Assembly (NCBI GenBank): GCA_025782575.1
Contig: JALGYY010000049.1
Span: 1 to 10,108, forward strand
Length of the DNA: 10,108 nt
Source: a bacterium
GTDB lineage: Bacteria; Orphanbacterota; Orphanbacteria; Orphanbacterales; Orphanbacteraceae
Reading direction: 5' to 3'
Every line of letters begins with the position of its first letter. Positions within the stretch are counted from its first letter, which is position 1. The translations under genes and the position numbers were made by a program. Below are positions 2,299 through 10,108 of the stretch, one piece after another. The notes under the pieces were generated by a model. The model searched no databases, was not told where the DNA came from, and worked only from the letters and a program-made list of their open reading frames with translations.

Positions 2299-3828
2299 CT
2301 ACTCGATCTTGAGAATGACCCCATTGGTCACACTGAATCCGGTCGGATTGCCTGCCCCCATGTCCCTGACGAGCCCCTGCAAGTTGAACAACGCCGGAGC
2401 AGCAAACCCACCGCCCTTTGTGACCGTCCAGGGCACCGCTGCGGGAGCCGGCAGCTCCATCACAGACCCGCAGAGTATGCATGGAAGCTGCGGACTCCGG
2501 AGGCAACGAAATGGTTGAGGGGTTATCCCTGGATTCAGCGGAGTCGGGAGTGCCGTGCATCCGAGGAGCTCTCCGCCAGCCATCAATTCGGTGCAGTTTG
2601 TCGGCGCGCCAACCCAGAGCCAAAGCACATAGAGACCGGCACCAGATCCGGCTGGTGCATCATTCATGGCAATGGTGATGGGTTCTCCCGTTGCCACGGT
2701 CACGGTTCCTGAACCTCCGTTCACGAAGAGTACTTCAGTTGTTGGGCCGACGCCGCCGTTCACAGTCCCTAGATTGCAAGGGTTCGGGAGGATCTTGAAT
2801 GCATTGTTGCTGGAGGTGCCCGACACGTAGACGGTGCCCGACCCGTCCACGGTGATGTCAGCAGAACAGCGAAGCACGTGCCCCGCCCCGTCTCCCGTCT
2901 CATCAAGGATCTCGGTGATCGTCCCGCCAGGCGTGATCCTGAACGCATTGTGGGTACAATCCCCTGACACGTAGACGTTCCCCGATCCGTCCACAGCAAG
3001 TCCGCCTCCGCCACCCAGGCGGTTTCCCGCTCCGTCCCCAAAACTATCGATGATCTCGGTGATCACCCCACCCGGGGTGATCTTGAGCACGTTGCTGCTG
3101 AATTGTCCCGAGACATAAGCGTTCCCCGTCCCGTCCACTGCAATGCCCAGGGGGCTGTCGAGCCCAAATCCCGTTCCGGCCCCCGTTTGGTCGATGATCT
3201 CTGTGATCGTTCCGCCAGGCGTTATCTTGAACGCATTGCTGCTGAGATATCCTACGACGTACACGTTTTCAGAGCTGTCCACCGCGATGCATGTCGGCGT
3301 CTGGAGCTCGTTTCCCGCCCCATCCCCAGTTTCGTCGATGATTTCGGTGATCGTCCCGTCCGGAGTGATCTTGAAAGCATTGTCGGTGAATTCCCCCGTT
3401 ACGTAGACGTTGCCCGAGCCGTCTACTACGACGCACCTGGCTCCGACAAGAAGGTTTCCCTCCCCATCGCCCAAGAAACCGATGATCTCTGTGATGGTCC
3501 CGCCCAAGGCGACCTTCGATACCCCGCAGGCTGCAACGAAGACGTTCCCCACCCCGTCCACTGCGACGTCACGAGGGCCGTTGATATCGAGCAAGACACT
3601 GACCACCCCGCCCTCAGTGACCCGGAACACATTATCGCTCGCAAACCCTGCTAGGTAGAAGTTTCCTGAGTCGTCTACTGCCACCCCCCGGGGTCGAATG
3701 AGCGAGTTCCCTGCCCCATCCCCCGATCCATCGATGATCTCGGTGATCTGCGCGGTGGCGTCAGAAGTCAATCCCAGTACAGCGAACACGAGTGAAACGC
3801 AACCCACGGATATCATGCACTTCATCAT
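2299..3828 (-). CDS. secreted seven-bladed NHL/SBBP-like beta-propeller protein
   Basis: The product is 509 residues from ATG 3828; a second ATG follows directly at 3825. The ribosome site GAGGTGG at 3833-3839 sits 4 nt from the first and 7 nt from the second ATG. Residues 1-26 form a signal peptide: hydrophobic core SVGCVSLVFAVLGL, cleavage after ATA before Gln27. Residues 28 to about 350 hold seven repeats of about 48 residues, typical unit VDGSGNVYVSG-x(4)-NAFKITPGGTITEIID-x-TGDGAG, which should close one propeller. A C-terminal domain of about 155 residues follows (CNLGTVNGGV, TVTVATGEPI, LYVLWLWVG, CTALPTPLNP, FSVTNGVILKIE) and is Cys-containing. I have seen this tail type on secreted proteins of large-genome environmental bacteria but cannot name it. 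The role is probably extracellular or periplasmic binding; no ligand can be deduced. It has its own promoter and lies 213 nt downstream of the PD40 gene. Confidence 0.85.
   Translation of the reverse strand: MMKCMISVGCVSLVFAVLGLTSDATAQITEIIDGSGDGAGNSLIRPRGVAVDDSGNFYLAGFASDNVFRVTEGGVVSVLLDINGPRDVAVDGVGNVFVAACGVSKVALGGTITEIIGFLGDGEGNLLVGARCVVVDGSGNVYVTGEFTDNAFKITPDGTITEIIDETGDGAGNELQTPTCIAVDSSENVYVVGYLSSNAFKITPGGTITEIIDQTGAGTGFGLDSPLGIAVDGTGNAYVSGQFSSNVLKITPGGVITEIIDSFGDGAGNRLGGGGGLAVDGSGNVYVSGDCTHNAFRITPGGTITEILDETGDGAGHVLRCSADITVDGSGTVYVSGTSSNNAFKILPNPCNLGTVNGGVGPTTEVLFVNGGSGTVTVATGEPITIAMNDAPAGSGAGLYVLWLWVGAPTNCTELMAGGELLGCTALPTPLNPGITPQPFRCLRSPQLPCILCGSVMELPAPAAVPWTVTKGGGFAAPALFNLQGLVRDMGAGNPTGFSVTNGVILKIE
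2780..3747 (-). repeat. seven tandem ~144-bp coding repeats of the propeller
   Basis: The DNA is built from units of about 144 bp, one per blade. Units 3 to 6 are the most alike (ITEIID-x(2)-GDGAG-N-x(6-8)-AVDGSGNVYV-x-G). Unit 2 is shortened, lacking the GDGAG loop at its start, and unit 7 ends in KILPNP instead of a new strand. The likeness of neighbouring units suggests recent duplication or gene conversion within the gene. Confidence 0.75.
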
Positions 3829-3906
3829 TTCTCCACCTCGCAAGGCGTCCATGGTGGGGCTGGCATTGACGCAATTGAGATCTGATTATCATGAGGCACG
3901 GACCCG

Positions 3907-4041: not shown

Positions 4042-5520
4042 TCAGTCGAGATCCAGAATCGCCTCCCATAGCTGAGACTCGTCCCGTACCATAGGCGAAA
4101 GGCCATAGACAATGCTCCTGTGCTGTCTCTTTGTCGGTCGCCAGAATGCCCCGGTTGCAAAAAAGTCCCCCTCTTGTGAAATCCGGAATTCGGCTACGCC
4201 AGGTGAGAGATCCGTACACGTGCTTGGAGGTGTCGCCCCGAATGGCCGGGAGAAGTTCCGCAACGCCCTAAGAACATCGATGACATAAATGCTCCCAGGA
4301 GTACCATTGGCACCATTCTCAGCCCGACTGTACAGAATGTAACGCCCGTCCTCAGACCATCGAATGCCGCTACGCGACGTTTCGTCTTGTGCTGTCTTTC
4401 GAGAAGTCAGCTGAAAGCACTGAACCGTCTCGTCACTGGCTGCGTCCGGATCGTAGACAGCCACGTAGAGTTGGGAACCAAAGAGCGGGTTTTTTATGTT
4501 ATTGGTGACATTGAATGCGTACATGAAGCCATTCGGTGACCACTCGGGCTGCCCAGAGAAGCCAAGCTCTGGAAAAGGAAGTTCTATCTTTGCGTCTGCA
4601 ATTTCTCCTACACCAAAATCCATCGGTCCAAAGGTCTCCTTGATTCGGACGAGAGCAATCGTCTTGGCGAAAGCACCCCCACCAGGAAGTATCGCGGTAA
4701 TGATGAGTCGTCCGAAGTTGAAGTGTTCTCTGTCAAGAACCGGACAAGCACTCCCGTTTTCGGATGTCGTTTCGATCGAATTCCCCTTATCACGATCGAT
4801 GACCAGTTGCTCGATGACACCAGTCTCACTGGAGACCGTGAAATGCGAACGAATCAAGTCATTCCGGCTACCACGTTCCGAGTAGAGCCATTCGACATCC
4901 CCTCCCCAGAGGATGCCCTGCTTGGCTGGGTCAGGACGATCAACATCGCTTACGGGATGCCCTACCAATCCACCACCAAAGGGAGGACGGATAGGTGCTA
5001 CAAAGATTTCAGCATCGTCTCGCACGCGATTGTATGCCACCCAAAATACGCCACCTAGCCGAGTAGCGGAAATAGCAAGGGGATCGTTCCCGCCACTGTC
5101 GTCTGGCACAGTGGTACGTTCGCCGGTCAGCGTCACGCTTCCCTTCCGGTCAATCTCAACTGTGAAGTCACGTATTTGGCGGCGTGGCACAGTGGCTTTA
5201 CACACGATTGAAGAACCATCCCGGGTGAAGTGGGGGTCGTTGTAGAAGACTGGCGGATCGGTCAACTGACGTCGACTCAGAACCACCTCATCCCCTCGAG
5301 CTGTTCCCCCGCCCAGCGGGCAGGTCACACTACTCCCCGGAGCATTCGGTATGGGTGTTGCCACGGTCGCTATCCCTCTACCCCGCGGGTTTTCGAATTG
5401 ACTCCGTCGGATGCTTGGAGGTGGTATGTGTGGCGTTGCGATGCCCCAGTGCTCGGAGTCCGGGTCATTGCTTGGCGCATTCGGTGGCGGCGTTTGATCA
5501 GTTGCTATTCCTGGAGACAT
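4042..5520 (-). CDS. PD40/TolB-like beta-propeller protein with repetitive GIAT/proline N-terminus
   Basis: The product is 492 residues. The start ATG at 5520 is fixed by a strong ribosome site AAAGGAG (5533-5527) with a 6-nt spacer. The N-terminal ~65 residues are Pro-rich with three imperfect repeats beginning GIAT. The rest carries WD40-like PD40 signatures: DPHFTRDGSSIVCKA (95-109), PEWSPNGFMYAFN (325-337) and IRWSEDGRYILYSRA (386-400), separated by strand-rich sequence, so a TolB-type propeller is expected. Unlike most TolB-like proteins, no signal peptide is visible and the first residues are hydrophilic, which suggests a cytoplasmic location or an unconventional export route. It lies 95 nt downstream of the small-protein gene on the same strand and is probably the last gene of the operon. 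Its function is unknown. Confidence 0.8.
   Translation of the reverse strand: MSPGIATDQTPPPNAPSNDPDSEHWGIATPHIPPPSIRRSQFENPRGRGIATVATPIPNAPGSSVTCPLGGGTARGDEVVLSRRQLTDPPVFYNDPHFTRDGSSIVCKATVPRRQIRDFTVEIDRKGSVTLTGERTTVPDDSGGNDPLAISATRLGGVFWVAYNRVRDDAEIFVAPIRPPFGGGLVGHPVSDVDRPDPAKQGILWGGDVEWLYSERGSRNDLIRSHFTVSSETGVIEQLVIDRDKGNSIETTSENGSACPVLDREHFNFGRLIITAILPGGGAFAKTIALVRIKETFGPMDFGVGEIADAKIELPFPELGFSGQPEWSPNGFMYAFNVTNNIKNPLFGSQLYVAVYDPDAASDETVQCFQLTSRKTAQDETSRSGIRWSEDGRYILYSRAENGANGTPGSIYVIDVLRALRNFSRPFGATPPSTCTDLSPGVAEFRISQEGDFFATGAFWRPTKRQHRSIVYGLSPMVRDESQLWEAILDLD
5329..5511 (-). repeat. three GIAT-Pro repeats encoded at the N-terminus of the PD40 gene
   Basis: Residues 4, 26 and 49 each start a copy: GIATDQTPPPNAPS, GIATPHIPPPSIRR and GIATVATPIPNAPG, spaced 22 and 23 residues. 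They are similar in protein and partly in DNA (for example PNAP in copies 1 and 3). The segment should be extended or disordered and could be a linker or a recognition tag; this role is inference. Confidence 0.5.
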
Positions 5521-5615: not shown

Positions 5616-5933
5616 CTATTCAACCCACATTGGCTCGAGAACCGTGACAAGCGCCATATCTCCGGCGGCCATCGCGAAGCTGAGTCGGACCTCTTCCTTG
5701 AGGTCCGAAACCTCCAACTTCTGCATCCCGGGGACCGTAAAGGCCTCGAACGTTCCGGCGGTCGTAAACGCGGTGTCCGCCCGGTTCTTGTGCTCGACCT
5801 TGATGCTGAGGGCCGGAAATGATCCGGTCAAAGTCACCACATCCACCGTAAAGAACGCTTTCGATCCGCCGCGAGGCTCAGTGTGCGTCGGTACCGCGAC
5901 ATCGCTCTTCCAGAGAACTTCCGTAGTAAGCAT
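5616..5933 (-). CDS. small beta-rich protein, paralogue B (virion/appendage-like, function unknown)
   Basis: The product is 105 residues if it starts at ATG 5933. An upstream in-frame ATG at 5957 would add MAQEEAKK. I prefer 5933 because GAGG lies 8 nt before it and because the product then aligns end to end with its upstream neighbour, which also starts Met-Leu. The sequence is predicted to be mostly beta strands, with the core KAFFTVDVVTLTGSFPALSI, HKNRADTAFTTAGTFEAFTV and LKEEVRLSFAMAAGDMALVT. It has no signal peptide, no Cys and no catalytic motif. The pattern of alternating hydrophobic strands with a turn before DTxxTTxxxF recalls small phage tail or decoration proteins, but I cannot assign a family. 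The gene lies 52 nt after its paralogue (28 nt if the longer start is used) and 95 nt before the PD40 gene. Confidence 0.7.
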   Translation of the reverse strand: MLTTEVLWKSDVAVPTHTEPRGGSKAFFTVDVVTLTGSFPALSIKVEHKNRADTAFTTAGTFEAFTVPGMQKLEVSDLKEEVRLSFAMAAGDMALVTVLEPMWVE

Positions 5934-5985
5934 CTTCTTTGCCTCTTCTTGGGCCATCGATTGACTCGACGAGGCCGCGTCCCCT

Positions 5986-6309
5986 TTAGTTGGTCCAGGA
6001 AACCGGGAGCATCTGGATCCGAACCCATGCTGCGCTGCCTCCAGTCACGTCGAACTTCAGTCGGACTTGCTCCTTGACGTCGTCTGCCTGTTTTGTCCCC
6101 ATCCCTACGGCGGTGATGTTGGCGAAGGCCGCCATGGATGTCCATGTGGTGTCCGCCTGGTTCTTTTGCTGGATCTCGATGGCAAGCGTCGCCGTACCCT
6201 CCAGCTGCGTCACATCGACGCTCATCATGGCGGTCTTGCCCCCTCGACTGATCGGAGCCGTGAAGACAGACGTAGAAGCTGCATTGTGGATCATCTCTCC
6301 AAGTAGCAT
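5986..6309 (-). CDS. small beta-rich protein, paralogue A (virion/appendage-like, function unknown)
   Basis: The product is 107 residues. The start ATG at 6309 is chosen from the ribosome site GAGGAG (6322-6317) with a 7-nt spacer; the frame extends upstream to 6363 but that part overlaps the glycosyltransferase. It aligns with paralogue B throughout: GGKTAMMSVDVTQLEGTATL with GGSKAFFTVDVVTLTGSFPA, QKNQADTTWTSMAAF with HKNRADTAFTTAGTF, and DDVKEQVRLKFDVTGG with SDLKEEVRLSFAMAAG. It is rich in Thr and Ser, has no Cys and no signal peptide, and should form a compact beta sandwich. Only 11 nt separate it from the upstream glycosyltransferase stop, so the two are co-transcribed and probably translationally coupled. 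It could be a structural subunit and, as inference, a substrate of that enzyme. Confidence 0.75.
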   Translation of the reverse strand: MLLGEMIHNAASTSVFTAPISRGGKTAMMSVDVTQLEGTATLAIEIQQKNQADTTWTSMAAFANITAVGMGTKQADDVKEQVRLKFDVTGGSAAWVRIQMLPVSWTN

Positions 6310-6316
6310 TGATGTT

Positions 6317-6322
6317 CTCCTC
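6317..6322 (-). promoter_or_regulatory. ribosome site GAGGAG overlapping the glycosyltransferase stop codon
   Basis: The Shine-Dalgarno match for the ATG at 6309 shares two bases with the TGA stop at 6323-6321 of the upstream gene. This arrangement favours coupled translation and supports the operon. Confidence 0.65.
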
Positions 6323-8369
6323 AGATCTCTTGTCTTGGGGCCGCTGTTTGGCCGACTACACACGAATTGGAAAAAGGCTTCGGGTTCTCTCTGTGACCGA
6401 AGCCCTCGACCTCGAATAGGATGCGGTCAAATACATCCTTCCAGTCATCCCGTTTCTTCTGGCGGAACAACCGGACGCTTGAATACCAGGGACTGTCTTC
6501 GCGATCCAGAAACCACCGCCAGTCGGGTACCGTGGAAAGGAGAATCCAGGTGGGCTTTCCCAAGGCTGCCGACAGGTGGCCAACCGAGGTGTCGACGGTG
6601 ATGACCAGATCCAGGTTGTCGATGGCGGCCGCGGTGTCGGAGAAATCGCCAAATGTCGCACCAAGGTCGAAAGGAGCGGCATCGTCTGGAATTCCCGCAA
6701 GTTGCTCGTGTCCCGGCCCTTTCTGGAGGGAGTACACCCACACACCCTCCATCCGGCACAGGGGAGCGAAGCTGGAAAGGCGCGTCGATCGGATCGAATC
6801 GTGTCTGTGCAGCGGACTCCCCTGCCACACGATGCCAACCTTGAGGTTCGGATGCTCAAACCAGTCCGTTCGGTAGCGATCCGACTTCCGGGAGTCGGCA
6901 TGCAGATAGGGCCCTGGAGACGGGATGGTCGAGAGATCGGTTGCGAACCGATACGGGAGACTTCCCAGGGGGGCGTACAGATCGTAGGAAGGGGACGTCT
7001 TTCCGGCATCTCGGGAGACGATCTCTGCTTGCAGATCGTTTCCACGGAGCAGCGATTCGAGCCCGGGTTGGGGCTCGAACAGGACACGCGCTCCCCGGGC
7101 ATGGAGCATGGGAAGGTAGCGGACAAACTGAATGACGTCCCCGAAACCCTGCTCGGCATACACGAGGATCGTCTTGTCGCGGAGAGATTCTCCCTTCCAT
7201 TCCGGGTGATCGAGGAGGTCGCTTTCTCTGCGTCGGTGGTTCTCGTCCTCGCGTCGGCTCTCATACAGAGGCCAACCCCTGGCGAAATCCTCGTGCATGA
7301 GGTACAGGATCCCCAGGCAGGTTCTGGCTTCCGCGTTGTCCTCGTCGTTCGAAGCCATGGACAGCGCGTGCTCGAAGGCGGCAATGCTTTCTTGAAACTC
7401 GCTTTTTCGCAGCAGGGCCAATCCGATCCCGAGATGCGACGACACTTCCGCGGGATTGATCGCGAGGACCCTCTCGAAAGTCTCGAGGGCTCGATCGAGC
7501 TCACCCTGATGGATGAAAACGTCACCCAGATTGTGGATCGAAGCGATGCACTCCGGATCTCCTTCGATGACCTTCTCGTAGGCCAGAGCCGCTCCATCGA
7601 GGTCCTTTTGATTGAACAAGACCCGTCCGAGCTGGAACCACGCCTCGGTGTGATCGGATTGCTCTTCCGCTGGAACACTCACTGCGGCGCGAAAGGCGAG
7701 AACGGCCTCCTCGAGACGCTCCTGTTGCACGAGCGCCTTCCCAATCCAGAACCAGGTTCGAGAGTGGTTCAGCCCCATGCTCAGTGCACGGAACAACGAA
7801 TCAAGGGCCTCGAGTAGGTCCCCGTTCTTCACGAGTGCCACCCCGAGCATCCTGTGCGCAGCGGGTTTCGTGGCATCTATTTCGCAAAGGGCTTTGAGCT
7901 GCGTGATTGCACCGGAGTATTCCTTGCTGGCGATCAGGATCTCGGCGAGGTTTTCCCGGAAGCTCGCCCGGTCAGGGGCAAGAGAGATGGATTTCTGAAT
8001 GAACTCGAGTCCCTTTGCGGAGTCCGATGTCGTGATGAGGATGGTCCCTTTGAGGTGCCAGGAATCGGGGTGATCGGGGTCGTCTGCCAGGATTTGATCG
8101 CAGTTTGCGGTAGCGCGAAGACGATCACCGGACTGGAACGTCTCGACGGCGCGCGACCAGAGATCGTCGTTCGACGTCGTGTCGAAAGCGCGCTCCTCTG
8201 GTGAACCCGGAGCGATTGCGAGGTTCGCGGTTCCTGGCTGTTGACCCTTGATGTCGGCCACTCCCGTATGCTGCAAAACCCGATCCGGCGACTTGCCAGA
8301 GCAGAGCCACGGCGGCGGACGTACGGATAGATCGCGGGTTTTGGGCGACTCGTTTACTCGTTTTTGCAT
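6321..8369 (-). CDS. TPR-repeat glycosyltransferase (GT9/heptosyltransferase-like C-terminal domain)
   Basis: The product is 682 residues from ATG 8369, or 646 from GTG 8261; neither has a good ribosome site and the domains begin only at residue ~65, so the start is uncertain. Residues ~68-365 hold about eight tetratricopeptide repeats (for example IHNLGDVFIHQGELDRALET, then FERVLAINP). Residues ~398-656 form a GT-B domain of the type attached to TPRs: ILVYAEQGFGDVIQFVRYLP, VGIVWQGSPLHRHDSIRS, VYSLQKGPG, and IDNLDLVITVDTSVGHLSAA LGKPTW, the last being the nucleotide-sugar binding motif. The protein is cytoplasmic with no membrane segment. Relatives transfer sugars onto lipopolysaccharide cores or onto proteins such as flagellins; TPRs usually bind the protein acceptor. 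It heads the operon with the two small proteins and the PD40 protein, and a methyltransferase diverges upstream. The domain looks intact; the sugar and acceptor are unknown. Confidence 0.85.
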   Translation of the reverse strand: MQKRVNESPKTRDLSVRPPPWLCSGKSPDRVLQHTGVADIKGQQPGTANLAIAPGSPEERAFDTTSNDDLWSRAVETFQSGDRLRATANCDQILADDPDHPDSWHLKGTILITTSDSAKGLEFIQKSISLAPDRASFRENLAEILIASKEYSGAITQLKALCEIDATKPAAHRMLGVALVKNGDLLEALDSLFRALSMGLNHSRTWFWIGKALVQQERLEEAVLAFRAAVSVPAEEQSDHTEAWFQLGRVLFNQKDLDGAALAYEKVIEGDPECIASIHNLGDVFIHQGELDRALETFERVLAINPAEVSSHLGIGLALLRKSEFQESIAAFEHALSMASNDEDNAEARTCLGILYLMHEDFARGWPLYESRREDENHRRRESDLLDHPEWKGESLRDKTILVYAEQGFGDVIQFVRYLPMLHARGARVLFEPQPGLESLLRGNDLQAEIVSRDAGKTSPSYDLYAPLGSLPYRFATDLSTIPSPGPYLHADSRKSDRYRTDWFEHPNLKVGIVWQGSPLHRHDSIRSTRLSSFAPLCRMEGVWVYSLQKGPGHEQLAGIPDDAAPFDLGATFGDFSDTAAAIDNLDLVITVDTSVGHLSAALGKPTWILLSTVPDWRWFLDREDSPWYSSVRLFRQKKRDDWKDVFDRILFEVEGFGHRENPKPFSNSCVVGQTAAPRQEI

Positions 8370-8627: not shown

Positions 8628-9350
8628 ATGGATGAAACGACGAAGTGCGCGAGACGTCGGCGTAGCGAAGGATTCTACGATCGATTCATCGTTGGACACG
8701 GAATCGACATCGGGTGCGGGCGGGACAAGATCGACTCCTCGGCGGTCGGCTACGATCTCGAGTCCGGGGATGCGCAAAGGATGGACGGATTCGAAGACGG
8801 GTCTTTCGACTACGTGTACAGCAGCCACTGTCTGGAGCACATGCGGGATCCTCGCGAGGCGATTCTGAACTGGTGGCGGCTCGTGAAGCCGGGTGGCCAC
8901 CTCATCGTGGCGATTCCCGACGAGGACCTGTATGAGCAGGGGATCGTACCGAGTGTCTTCAACCCGGATCACAAAATCACGTTCACGATCAGCAAGGAGC
9001 GGAGCTGGAGCCCGGTGAGCGTGAACATCCTCGATCTCGTACATATCCTTCCTCGCCGCAAGGTGATCTACATCAAGACGATGGACCGGGGATACGACTA
9101 CACGAAGCTCGGGACGAACGAGGACCAAACCCTGGGCGACGCGGAGGCCGGGATCGAGTTCGTCGTCCAGAAGGTGAGGGAGGAGCTCCCGCGGCGGACC
9201 ACGTTGCAACAGCTCATCCTGTGCCCGGAGTGCGGGAGGATGGAGTTGACGATGATCGGTGTCGACCAGGGAGGGGCGATGAACGTGAGATGCCGATCCT
9301 GCGGGGCGCCTGGAAAGCTCAGGATGTCGGGTGGGGCTCCGACAGAATAG
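8628..9350 (+). CDS. class I SAM-dependent methyltransferase with C-terminal zinc-ribbon-like motif
   Basis: The product is 240 residues from ATG 8628, preceded by the purine-rich GAGGATCAGGTG; the frame is open upstream to 8487 but that part reads as non-coding. Motif I is GIDIGCG (25-31), followed by the acidic strand GYDLE (41-45) that normally contacts the SAM ribose, and SFDYVYSSHCLEHMRDP (59-75) with LVKPGGHLIVAIPDEDLYEQ (85-104), typical of the Methyltransf_11 type. The middle (FNPDHKITFTISKERSW) belongs to a subgroup often found in sugar or surface-polymer gene clusters. The C-terminus has CPEC (199-202) and CRSC (222-225), a four-Cys arrangement that should bind zinc and is not part of the core fold. 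It diverges from the TPR-glycosyltransferase, which suggests a shared pathway. Substrate is unknown. Confidence 0.8.
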   Translation: MDETTKCARRRRSEGFYDRFIVGHGIDIGCGRDKIDSSAVGYDLESGDAQRMDGFEDGSFDYVYSSHCLEHMRDPREAILNWWRLVKPGGHLIVAIPDEDLYEQGIVPSVFNPDHKITFTISKERSWSPVSVNILDLVHILPRRKVIYIKTMDRGYDYTKLGTNEDQTLGDAEAGIEFVVQKVREELPRRTTLQQLILCPECGRMELTMIGVDQGGAMNVRCRSCGAPGKLRMSGGAPTE

Positions 9351-9867: not shown

Positions 9868-10107
9868 TTACGCAGCTCGAGTGTACCGATGATGAAGGCC
9901 ACCGACCATCGGGGTGGAAATCACTTGCCCGTTCTCAGGCGGATCGACCTTCCGTGGAATCGGAGCGTTTCGGCCGAGGGACAGGTGCGGTCGCACTTCG
10001 TGATAATAGGTCAAGTAACCTGACACGATTTGCCGAAGGTGGTTCTCGCCCAGAACGATGACGTGATTGAGGATCTCTCGCCGAAGTGAGCCGATTACCC
10101 TTTCCGC
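9868..10107 (-). CDS. C-terminal end of an integrase-core (rve-type) transposase, truncated by window
   Basis: From the right edge the minus strand gives 79 residues to TAA at 9870-9868. It reads RVIGSLRREILNHVIVLGEN, then HLRQIVSGYLTYYHEVRPHL SLGRNAPIPR and VGGLHHRYTRAA. This is the last part of the DDE integrase core of insertion-sequence transposases; RRE(C/I)L-HVIVL..HL and YY---RPHLSL are the family's hallmarks, and RRE would carry the third catalytic acid (Glu). IS3- or IS481-related elements are the best fit. The frame is intact inside the window. The terminal inverted repeat should lie left of 9868, possibly around the C- and A-rich CCCCCCGGGCAAAAATGGCC at 9822-9841, but no partner is available to test this. 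Confidence 0.75.
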   Translation of the reverse strand, partial: AERVIGSLRREILNHVIVLGENHLRQIVSGYLTYYHEVRPHLSLGRNAPIPRKVDPPENGQVISTPMVGGLHHRYTRAA

Positions 10108-10108
10108 G

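Follow-up and report, generated by a model that had tools for sequence, protein, structure and literature searches.

What two small, adjacent genes are doing directly behind the gene of a TPR-glycosyltransferase is the question raised by the window, the whole stretch of DNA analysed here (contig C15, 10,108 b, complete, from a 4.88-Mb assembly). The order on the minus strand is TPR-glycosyltransferase, A, B, a 492-aa PD40-like protein and an SBBP/NHL-type β-propeller protein (Table 1), and a literature search found no description of this gene set. An earlier note, made from the DNA sequence, had proposed that A and B are β-rich paralogues with a strand pattern recalling phage tail or decoration proteins, that they are two subunits or a hetero-oligomer, and that they are candidate acceptors or structural partners of the glycosyltransferase.

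Both ORFs were found where the note had placed them on the minus strand (A 6309..5986; B ending at 5616). The proteins proved to be whole-length but diverged paralogues, with 37% identity in the full alignment and a central two-sequence BLASTP match of 40% identity over 78 aa (E 3e-18). The glycosyltransferase gene ends in a TGA (6323-6321) that shares bases with the GAGGAG ahead of A (6322-6317), also as described. For B, the listed start at 5957 gives 113 aa and the ATG at 5933 gives 105 aa. Because the latter codon is aligned with the start of A and has an AGAGG (5946-5942) 8 nt upstream, and because the eight extra residues of the longer form are the least confident part of its model (residues 1-6, pLDDT <50), the true start is most likely ATG 5933, which restores an N-terminus in common with A; 5957 is less likely. 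Neither A nor B contains a cysteine, and no signal peptide is evident in A, B or the large downstream partner.

Table 1. Features of the window, with the evidence for each.
Feature	Position	Strand	Evidence
SBBP/NHL-type β-propeller protein, likely signal peptide	2299-3852	-	ORF, Pfam
Large partner, 492 aa, probable PD40-like β-propeller body	4042..5520	-	Weak Pfam PD40 and DPPIV_N matches
N-terminal tag region of large partner, Pro-rich, three GIAT copies	5341..5520	-	Sequence
Jelly-roll protein B, 105 aa from ATG 5933	5616..5933	-	ORF, model (pLDDT 82), orthologue L149:7113-7430 at 58%, Shine-Dalgarno sequence
Jelly-roll protein A, 107 aa	5986..6309	-	ORF, paralogy, model, orthologue L149:7499-7831 at 55%, tree
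Shine-Dalgarno GAGGAG of A	6317..6322	-	Sequence; overlaps glycosyltransferase TGA stop 6321-6323
TPR-glycosyltransferase, 660 aa, TPRs and GT9-like C-terminal part	6321..8303	-	Pfam; start codon uncertain
Methyltransferase, divergent from glycosyltransferase	8628..9350	+	Pfam

AlphaFold2 monomer models, computed with an alignment of A and B alone, were all-β with 8 to 9 strands, in keeping with the β-rich character ascribed to the pair (A, pLDDT 75 and pTM 0.67; B, 82 and 0.75). The eight-stranded jelly roll of Bbp16-type phage cement proteins, a common fold, is present in both models. When the models were compared with PDB structures, Bbp16 (3j4u_H) reached Z 10.0 with A (102 residues) and 10.4 with B (107 residues), on a par with GOLD, PirA and further jelly rolls, and the Ena subunit 7a02_A scored 9.3 (A) and 9.4 (B), with Ena2A (9i0y) at 9.2 for B. 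The best viral Foldseek match of both models was a 115-aa protein of phage PPpW-3 (V5YTA7), most likely its ORF-7; among PDB entries, Foldseek rank one for B was another phage cement protein, 7dou. A PDB sequence search gave chance-level matches only. Since the fold is very common, these structural matches by themselves prove nothing, and we rejected GOLD, PirA and Cry-type identities, whose structural scores tie with Bbp16 and which have no sequence support.

Single-sequence searches of genome_contigs, viral_contigs and phages found no close homologues of A or B, and a first profile (A1) run over the window's own phylum and ~380 further genomes matched the window alone. Neither the pair nor the glycosyltransferase was found in any relative among seven genomes of that phylum. 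Members were obtained from a sample of 392 genomes from the phylum of a DUF1559-rich genome (labelled Planctomycetota-type on the basis of the DUF1559 marker), in which an A + B profile had matches in 18 genomes (E <= 0.01). A family alignment of 33 members was built from those genomes plus the window; in it R22, R83 and W105 (A numbering) are invariant and A27, K79, E80 and P103 nearly so; a candidate at locus L168 was dropped as a false positive within a ribulose-phosphate epimerase-like protein. The small two-gene pair is in this way placed in a definable family with conserved residues. There is no Pfam or NCBIfam model for it, and no Pfam family covers the 33 members. Most members come from Planctomycetota-type genomes, where the arrays comprise one to five copies, and a tRNA gene is present in 6 of the 19 fetched array loci, a count to which we gave no weight. 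In genome G409 (L164:8021-13888), two cassettes of a jelly-roll pair and a large protein lie next to each other, with a small membrane protein encoded after the first.

The likeness to phage virion proteins became clear with the family as a whole. On their own, A and B match PHROG 427, 5707 and 9522 weakly (A versus phrog_427, E 0.002), with HMMER scores against phage profiles barely above those of shuffled sequences; significance came from the larger family only. With all 33 members searched against 38,880 PHROGs, the commonest matches by far were phrog_9522 (12/33, best E 4.4e-7) and phrog_5707 (9/33), while phrog_427 was matched by two members. Of the phage proteins, Bbp16 is a member of phrog_427 and PPpW-3 ORF-7 one of phrog_5707; in addition, each of the two matches the other's family as well as phrog_9522. 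Profile-profile comparison (hhalign), for which 60 column shuffles served as the null, gave a probability of 95% and a score of 50 against the PPpW-3 ORF-7-type (phrog_5707) set (shuffle maximum 19), 30 against tail C-terminal domains (maximum 15) and 45 against the merged phage set (maximum 17). Against the phrog_427 set alone the score of 15.4 was within the shuffles, and direct membership of the Bbp16 family is hence not claimed. Given the PHROG match counts and the profile-profile scores above shuffles, common ancestry of the family with the phage virion jelly-roll superfamily (PHROG 427/5707/9522) is well supported at the level of sequence, and the search that the earlier note had proposed backs its comparison with tail and decoration proteins. 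A family that lacks a Pfam model and joins phage cement and tail jelly rolls to chromosomal arrays in Planctomycetota-type bacteria also offers a lead for genes that otherwise lack annotation.

The closest phage counterparts differ from A and B in setting. Bbp16 of phage BPP-1 (phrog_427, PDB 3j4u) is likewise an eight-stranded jelly roll of similar size, but it is the product of a phage head gene, whereas A and B are a diverged pair in a non-phage operon; its gene comes after that of the major capsid protein, and phage production depends on it (PMC3863775). That context, a gene directly behind a major capsid gene, was not seen here, as no phage structural gene could be recognised in the window. 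The Pseudomonas phage PPpW-3 ORF-7 (phrog_5707) is the family's best profile-profile match and has the K-x-x-V-R motif in common with it; unlike A and B, it is encoded two genes behind a phage major capsid gene. The strongest PHROG match, phrog_9522, corresponds to a jelly-roll domain at the C-terminus of some major tail proteins of phages, part of a protein of ~240 aa, whereas A and B are free-standing.

One IMG/VR contig (L219) does carry a family member, of 62% identity, in a phage tail module, where a tail assembly chaperone gene (phrog_344, E 4e-16) lies on one side of it and a gene for a tail fibre (phrog_4176, E 1e-14) on the other. The family tree places this copy within f315, a clade of chromosomal members, and the phage therefore probably took it up from the chromosomal family. 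We read the phage-type fold as being at home in chromosomal loci and now and then picked up by phage. On the same contig (L219:81-7706) the family member is followed by a gene for a 281-aa protein, a HEAT-repeat-like gene and a gene for a 1020-aa protein of unknown family.

The earlier note had called for a survey of linkage between the pair, the glycosyltransferase and the PD40 gene, and the outcome was mixed. Contig C119 of genome G442 (locus L149) has the gene order of the window: a glycosyltransferase with 57% identity over 303 aa comes first, then A' (55%) and B' (58%), and last a propeller-like protein of 513 aa. A second contig of this genome, C387 (L167), holds another glycosyltransferase gene and an A-like gene, both frame-broken, and a B-like gene, together with a methyltransferase gene (66% over 59 aa) divergent from a further glycosyltransferase gene, as in the window. 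The glycosyltransferase homologues in G442 are 48-57% identical to that of the window. As the ends of C119 and C387 overlap (94.7% over 376 bp), the two contigs may be adjacent. The order glycosyltransferase, A, B, large protein thus recurs, but it is not general: the fetched flanks of the other array genomes hold no relative of the window's TPR-glycosyltransferase, and a search of genome_contigs with this protein gave no match. Outside the window, the linkage comes from one genome and two operons, the second of them frame-broken in the assembly. Likewise, a large downstream protein recurs in G442, whereas the PD40 body does not, the G442 body failing to match. TPR-glycosyltransferase relatives were also seen in other settings. 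In phage MW202512 (L028:17490-20861) a major capsid gene is followed by two small genes, the relative and more sugar-related genes, a possible virion glycosylation cassette; the small proteins were rejected as relatives of A and B, as they match other PHROGs weakly or none. A relative on an Azospirillum plasmid (L027) has a large calcium-binding protein and a type I secretion system as its neighbours.

The family tree pairs A with A' (ultrafast bootstrap 94) and B with B' (99), which implies that the pair is old and that its members are not interchangeable. Similarly, each of the four array positions in genomes G447 and G596 pairs with its own orthologue (support 100). Two non-interchangeable lineages are what a hetero-oligomer would be expected to leave, and to this extent the suggestion of two subunits agrees with the sequences. 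For B-B' the dN/dS ratio was 0.24, and six other orthologue pairs within the family gave 0.06-0.45; for A-A', synonymous sites were saturated. Orthologues at 55-58% identity, with dN/dS <0.5 wherever computable, argue that A and B are genes and not chance ORFs.

In most arrays a larger ORF, usually of 230-510 aa, follows on the same strand within 175 bp, and the constant companion of the family is this larger downstream protein and not the glycosyltransferase. Start codons and frames of these partners were called mechanically. Searches with Pfam (ten partners) and PHROG (nine) gave only weak PD40-type matches and one match to DUF3750 (L166, E 1.7e-5), and the window's own partner had no PHROG match. 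The window's 492-aa partner begins with a tag that contains GIATD, GIATP and GIATV, and M-x-x-G-I-A is common to it and the 513-aa protein in the same position in G442 (L149:5437-6978); the bodies of the two do not match. Within the first 60 aa of these two glycosyltransferase-linked partners, GIATP is the sole 5-mer in common (chance 0.0035), and residues 4-6 coincide (chance 0.0003). Several array partners instead start with a similar Cys-rich stretch, MGACC..KPFGEPCGDCAFDEP, which is 83% identical over the first 24 aa in two partners without a body match. The tag varies by clade, being GIAT-type in the window and L149 and Cys-rich in most arrays; in some partners (L154, L161) no front tag was recognised, and some (L157, L160, L161) have related bodies. 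Partner GC3 was below that of the jelly-roll genes in 16/16 loci (counting those whose downstream ORF encodes a protein from outside the family), which could reflect lineage-specific genes instead of an exchange of cargo.

We propose, with a probability of roughly 0.4, that A and B form a hetero-oligomeric, phage-related jelly-roll scaffold in chromosomal operons, which holds a tagged partner, and, more speculatively, that the glycosyltransferase modifies partner or scaffold. A and B would assemble with each other, probably by edge-strand pairing, a natural proposal by analogy with Bbp16, which dimerises through its F strands (PMC3863775), and with Ena1C, whose rings form via strand augmentation (PMC12921279). 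The gene order, scaffold and then tagged partner, suggests docking, in which the short N-terminal tag would stay similar while the body changes. In the version found in the window, the TPR-glycosyltransferase might modify partner or scaffold in the cytoplasm. OGT and SPINDLY modify cytoplasmic and nuclear proteins. The TPR part of the window's enzyme resembles theirs (PDB sequence matches) and A, B and the partner have no evident signal peptide, so a cytoplasmic modification is possible. The Thr-containing GIAT tag is a candidate site, and the Thr/Pro-rich tag region is at least as plausible a putative glycosylation acceptor as A and B, which the earlier note had nominated. It is a bolder and rather improbable claim that the locus represents a previously undescribed type of assembly, with jelly-roll hetero-oligomers that carry interchangeable, tag-docked large proteins and a dedicated TPR-glycosyltransferase that modifies tag or scaffold. 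If the main proposal holds, a building block of phage capsids or tails would have become established in operons of the cell, where it would serve exchangeable partners as a scaffold of several subunits. The data suggest a viral building block reused in a new role.

Other readings of the same genes were weighed against this one. A and B could be tail or decoration genes of a decayed prophage, acting now or formerly only in particles, as their remote homology to phage cement and tail proteins, the member in the L219 tail module, the TPR-glycosyltransferase relative three genes behind the major capsid gene of MW202512 and the mobile-element genes at both window ends would suggest. However, searches of the window turned up no recognisable phage gene, in agreement with the earlier note, the surroundings of the arrays showed no prophage, and relatives of the other tested L219 genes were not found near any chromosomal array. 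The tested partners also lack PHROG matches, the phage copy was probably acquired from within the f315 clade, and dN/dS is well below 1 with A/B order kept across genomes; we regard this origin as unlikely. Slightly less probable still is that the large proteins are polymorphic effectors, the small membrane proteins or lipoproteins encoded behind them protect the producer, and the jelly rolls act as loading or delivery adaptors or chaperones. The short shared tags on often unrelated bodies of lower GC3 fit such cassettes, as do the small membrane or lipoprotein genes after several partners, the adjacent repeated cassettes in G409 and an RHS-like repeat ORF near L165. Yet the partners gave no match to any known toxin domain, DUF3750 in L166 (E 1.7e-5) being the sole hit, and a toxin role thus found no support from domains; the window's partner resembles a β-propeller and no obvious enzyme, with no secretion apparatus nearby.

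Ena1A and Ena1B, endospore appendage subunits of Bacillus that co-polymerise (PMC12921279), are likewise a tandem pair of paralogous jelly-roll proteins, comparable in size and with a third gene close by, and by this model A and B, tandem paralogues of ~105 aa with structural matches to 7a02_A and Ena2A, would polymerise into a thin cell-surface fibre with the large protein as tip or anchor. Ena1A and Ena1B are spore-specific and disulfide-linked via an N-terminal cysteine connector (PMC12921279). The A and B models have the jelly-roll subunit fold of Ena, but the proteins have neither cysteine nor the cysteine-bearing connector that couples Ena subunits, no signal peptide is evident and no Ena-type family is among the Pfam matches, which makes a fibre quite improbable. 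We give least credence to a reading of A and B as CBM-like or GOLD-like domains whose ligands are the glycans that the adjoining glycosyltransferase produces. Foldseek lists CBM4 and other CBM domains for B (E 1e-3 to 1e-2), but Pfam searches with A, B and the 33 members gave no CBM match, a consistent signal at the sequence level came from the phage jelly-roll profiles only, and the glycosyltransferase was not found near most arrays.

Finally, the composition and edges of the window bear on its origin. By tetranucleotide composition the contig lies at a distance of 0.172 from its own genome, whose fragments range over 0.08-0.22 (mostly <0.14), and of 0.163 from G442. This atypical composition, the single 10-kb contig and the transposase end and broken recombinase at its ends imply that C15 may be a mobile island or result of horizontal transfer, or a mis-binned contig, and our statements on host and distribution are limited accordingly. 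Recombinase pieces lie at 207-2324 with a DUF2924 gene upstream; there, the reading frame of a resolvase fragment continues into a sulfatase-modifying-factor (FGE) domain, as if a decayed recombinase had been joined to a different gene. The C-terminal end of a transposase (rve_3 integrase core) at 9868-10108 is cut by the contig end. We also noted a ~160-aa C-terminal domain, 47% identical, common to the SBBP propeller protein of the window (2299-2780) and an FG-GAP protein of G442 (L149:3746-5389), where it sits on different repeat bodies.
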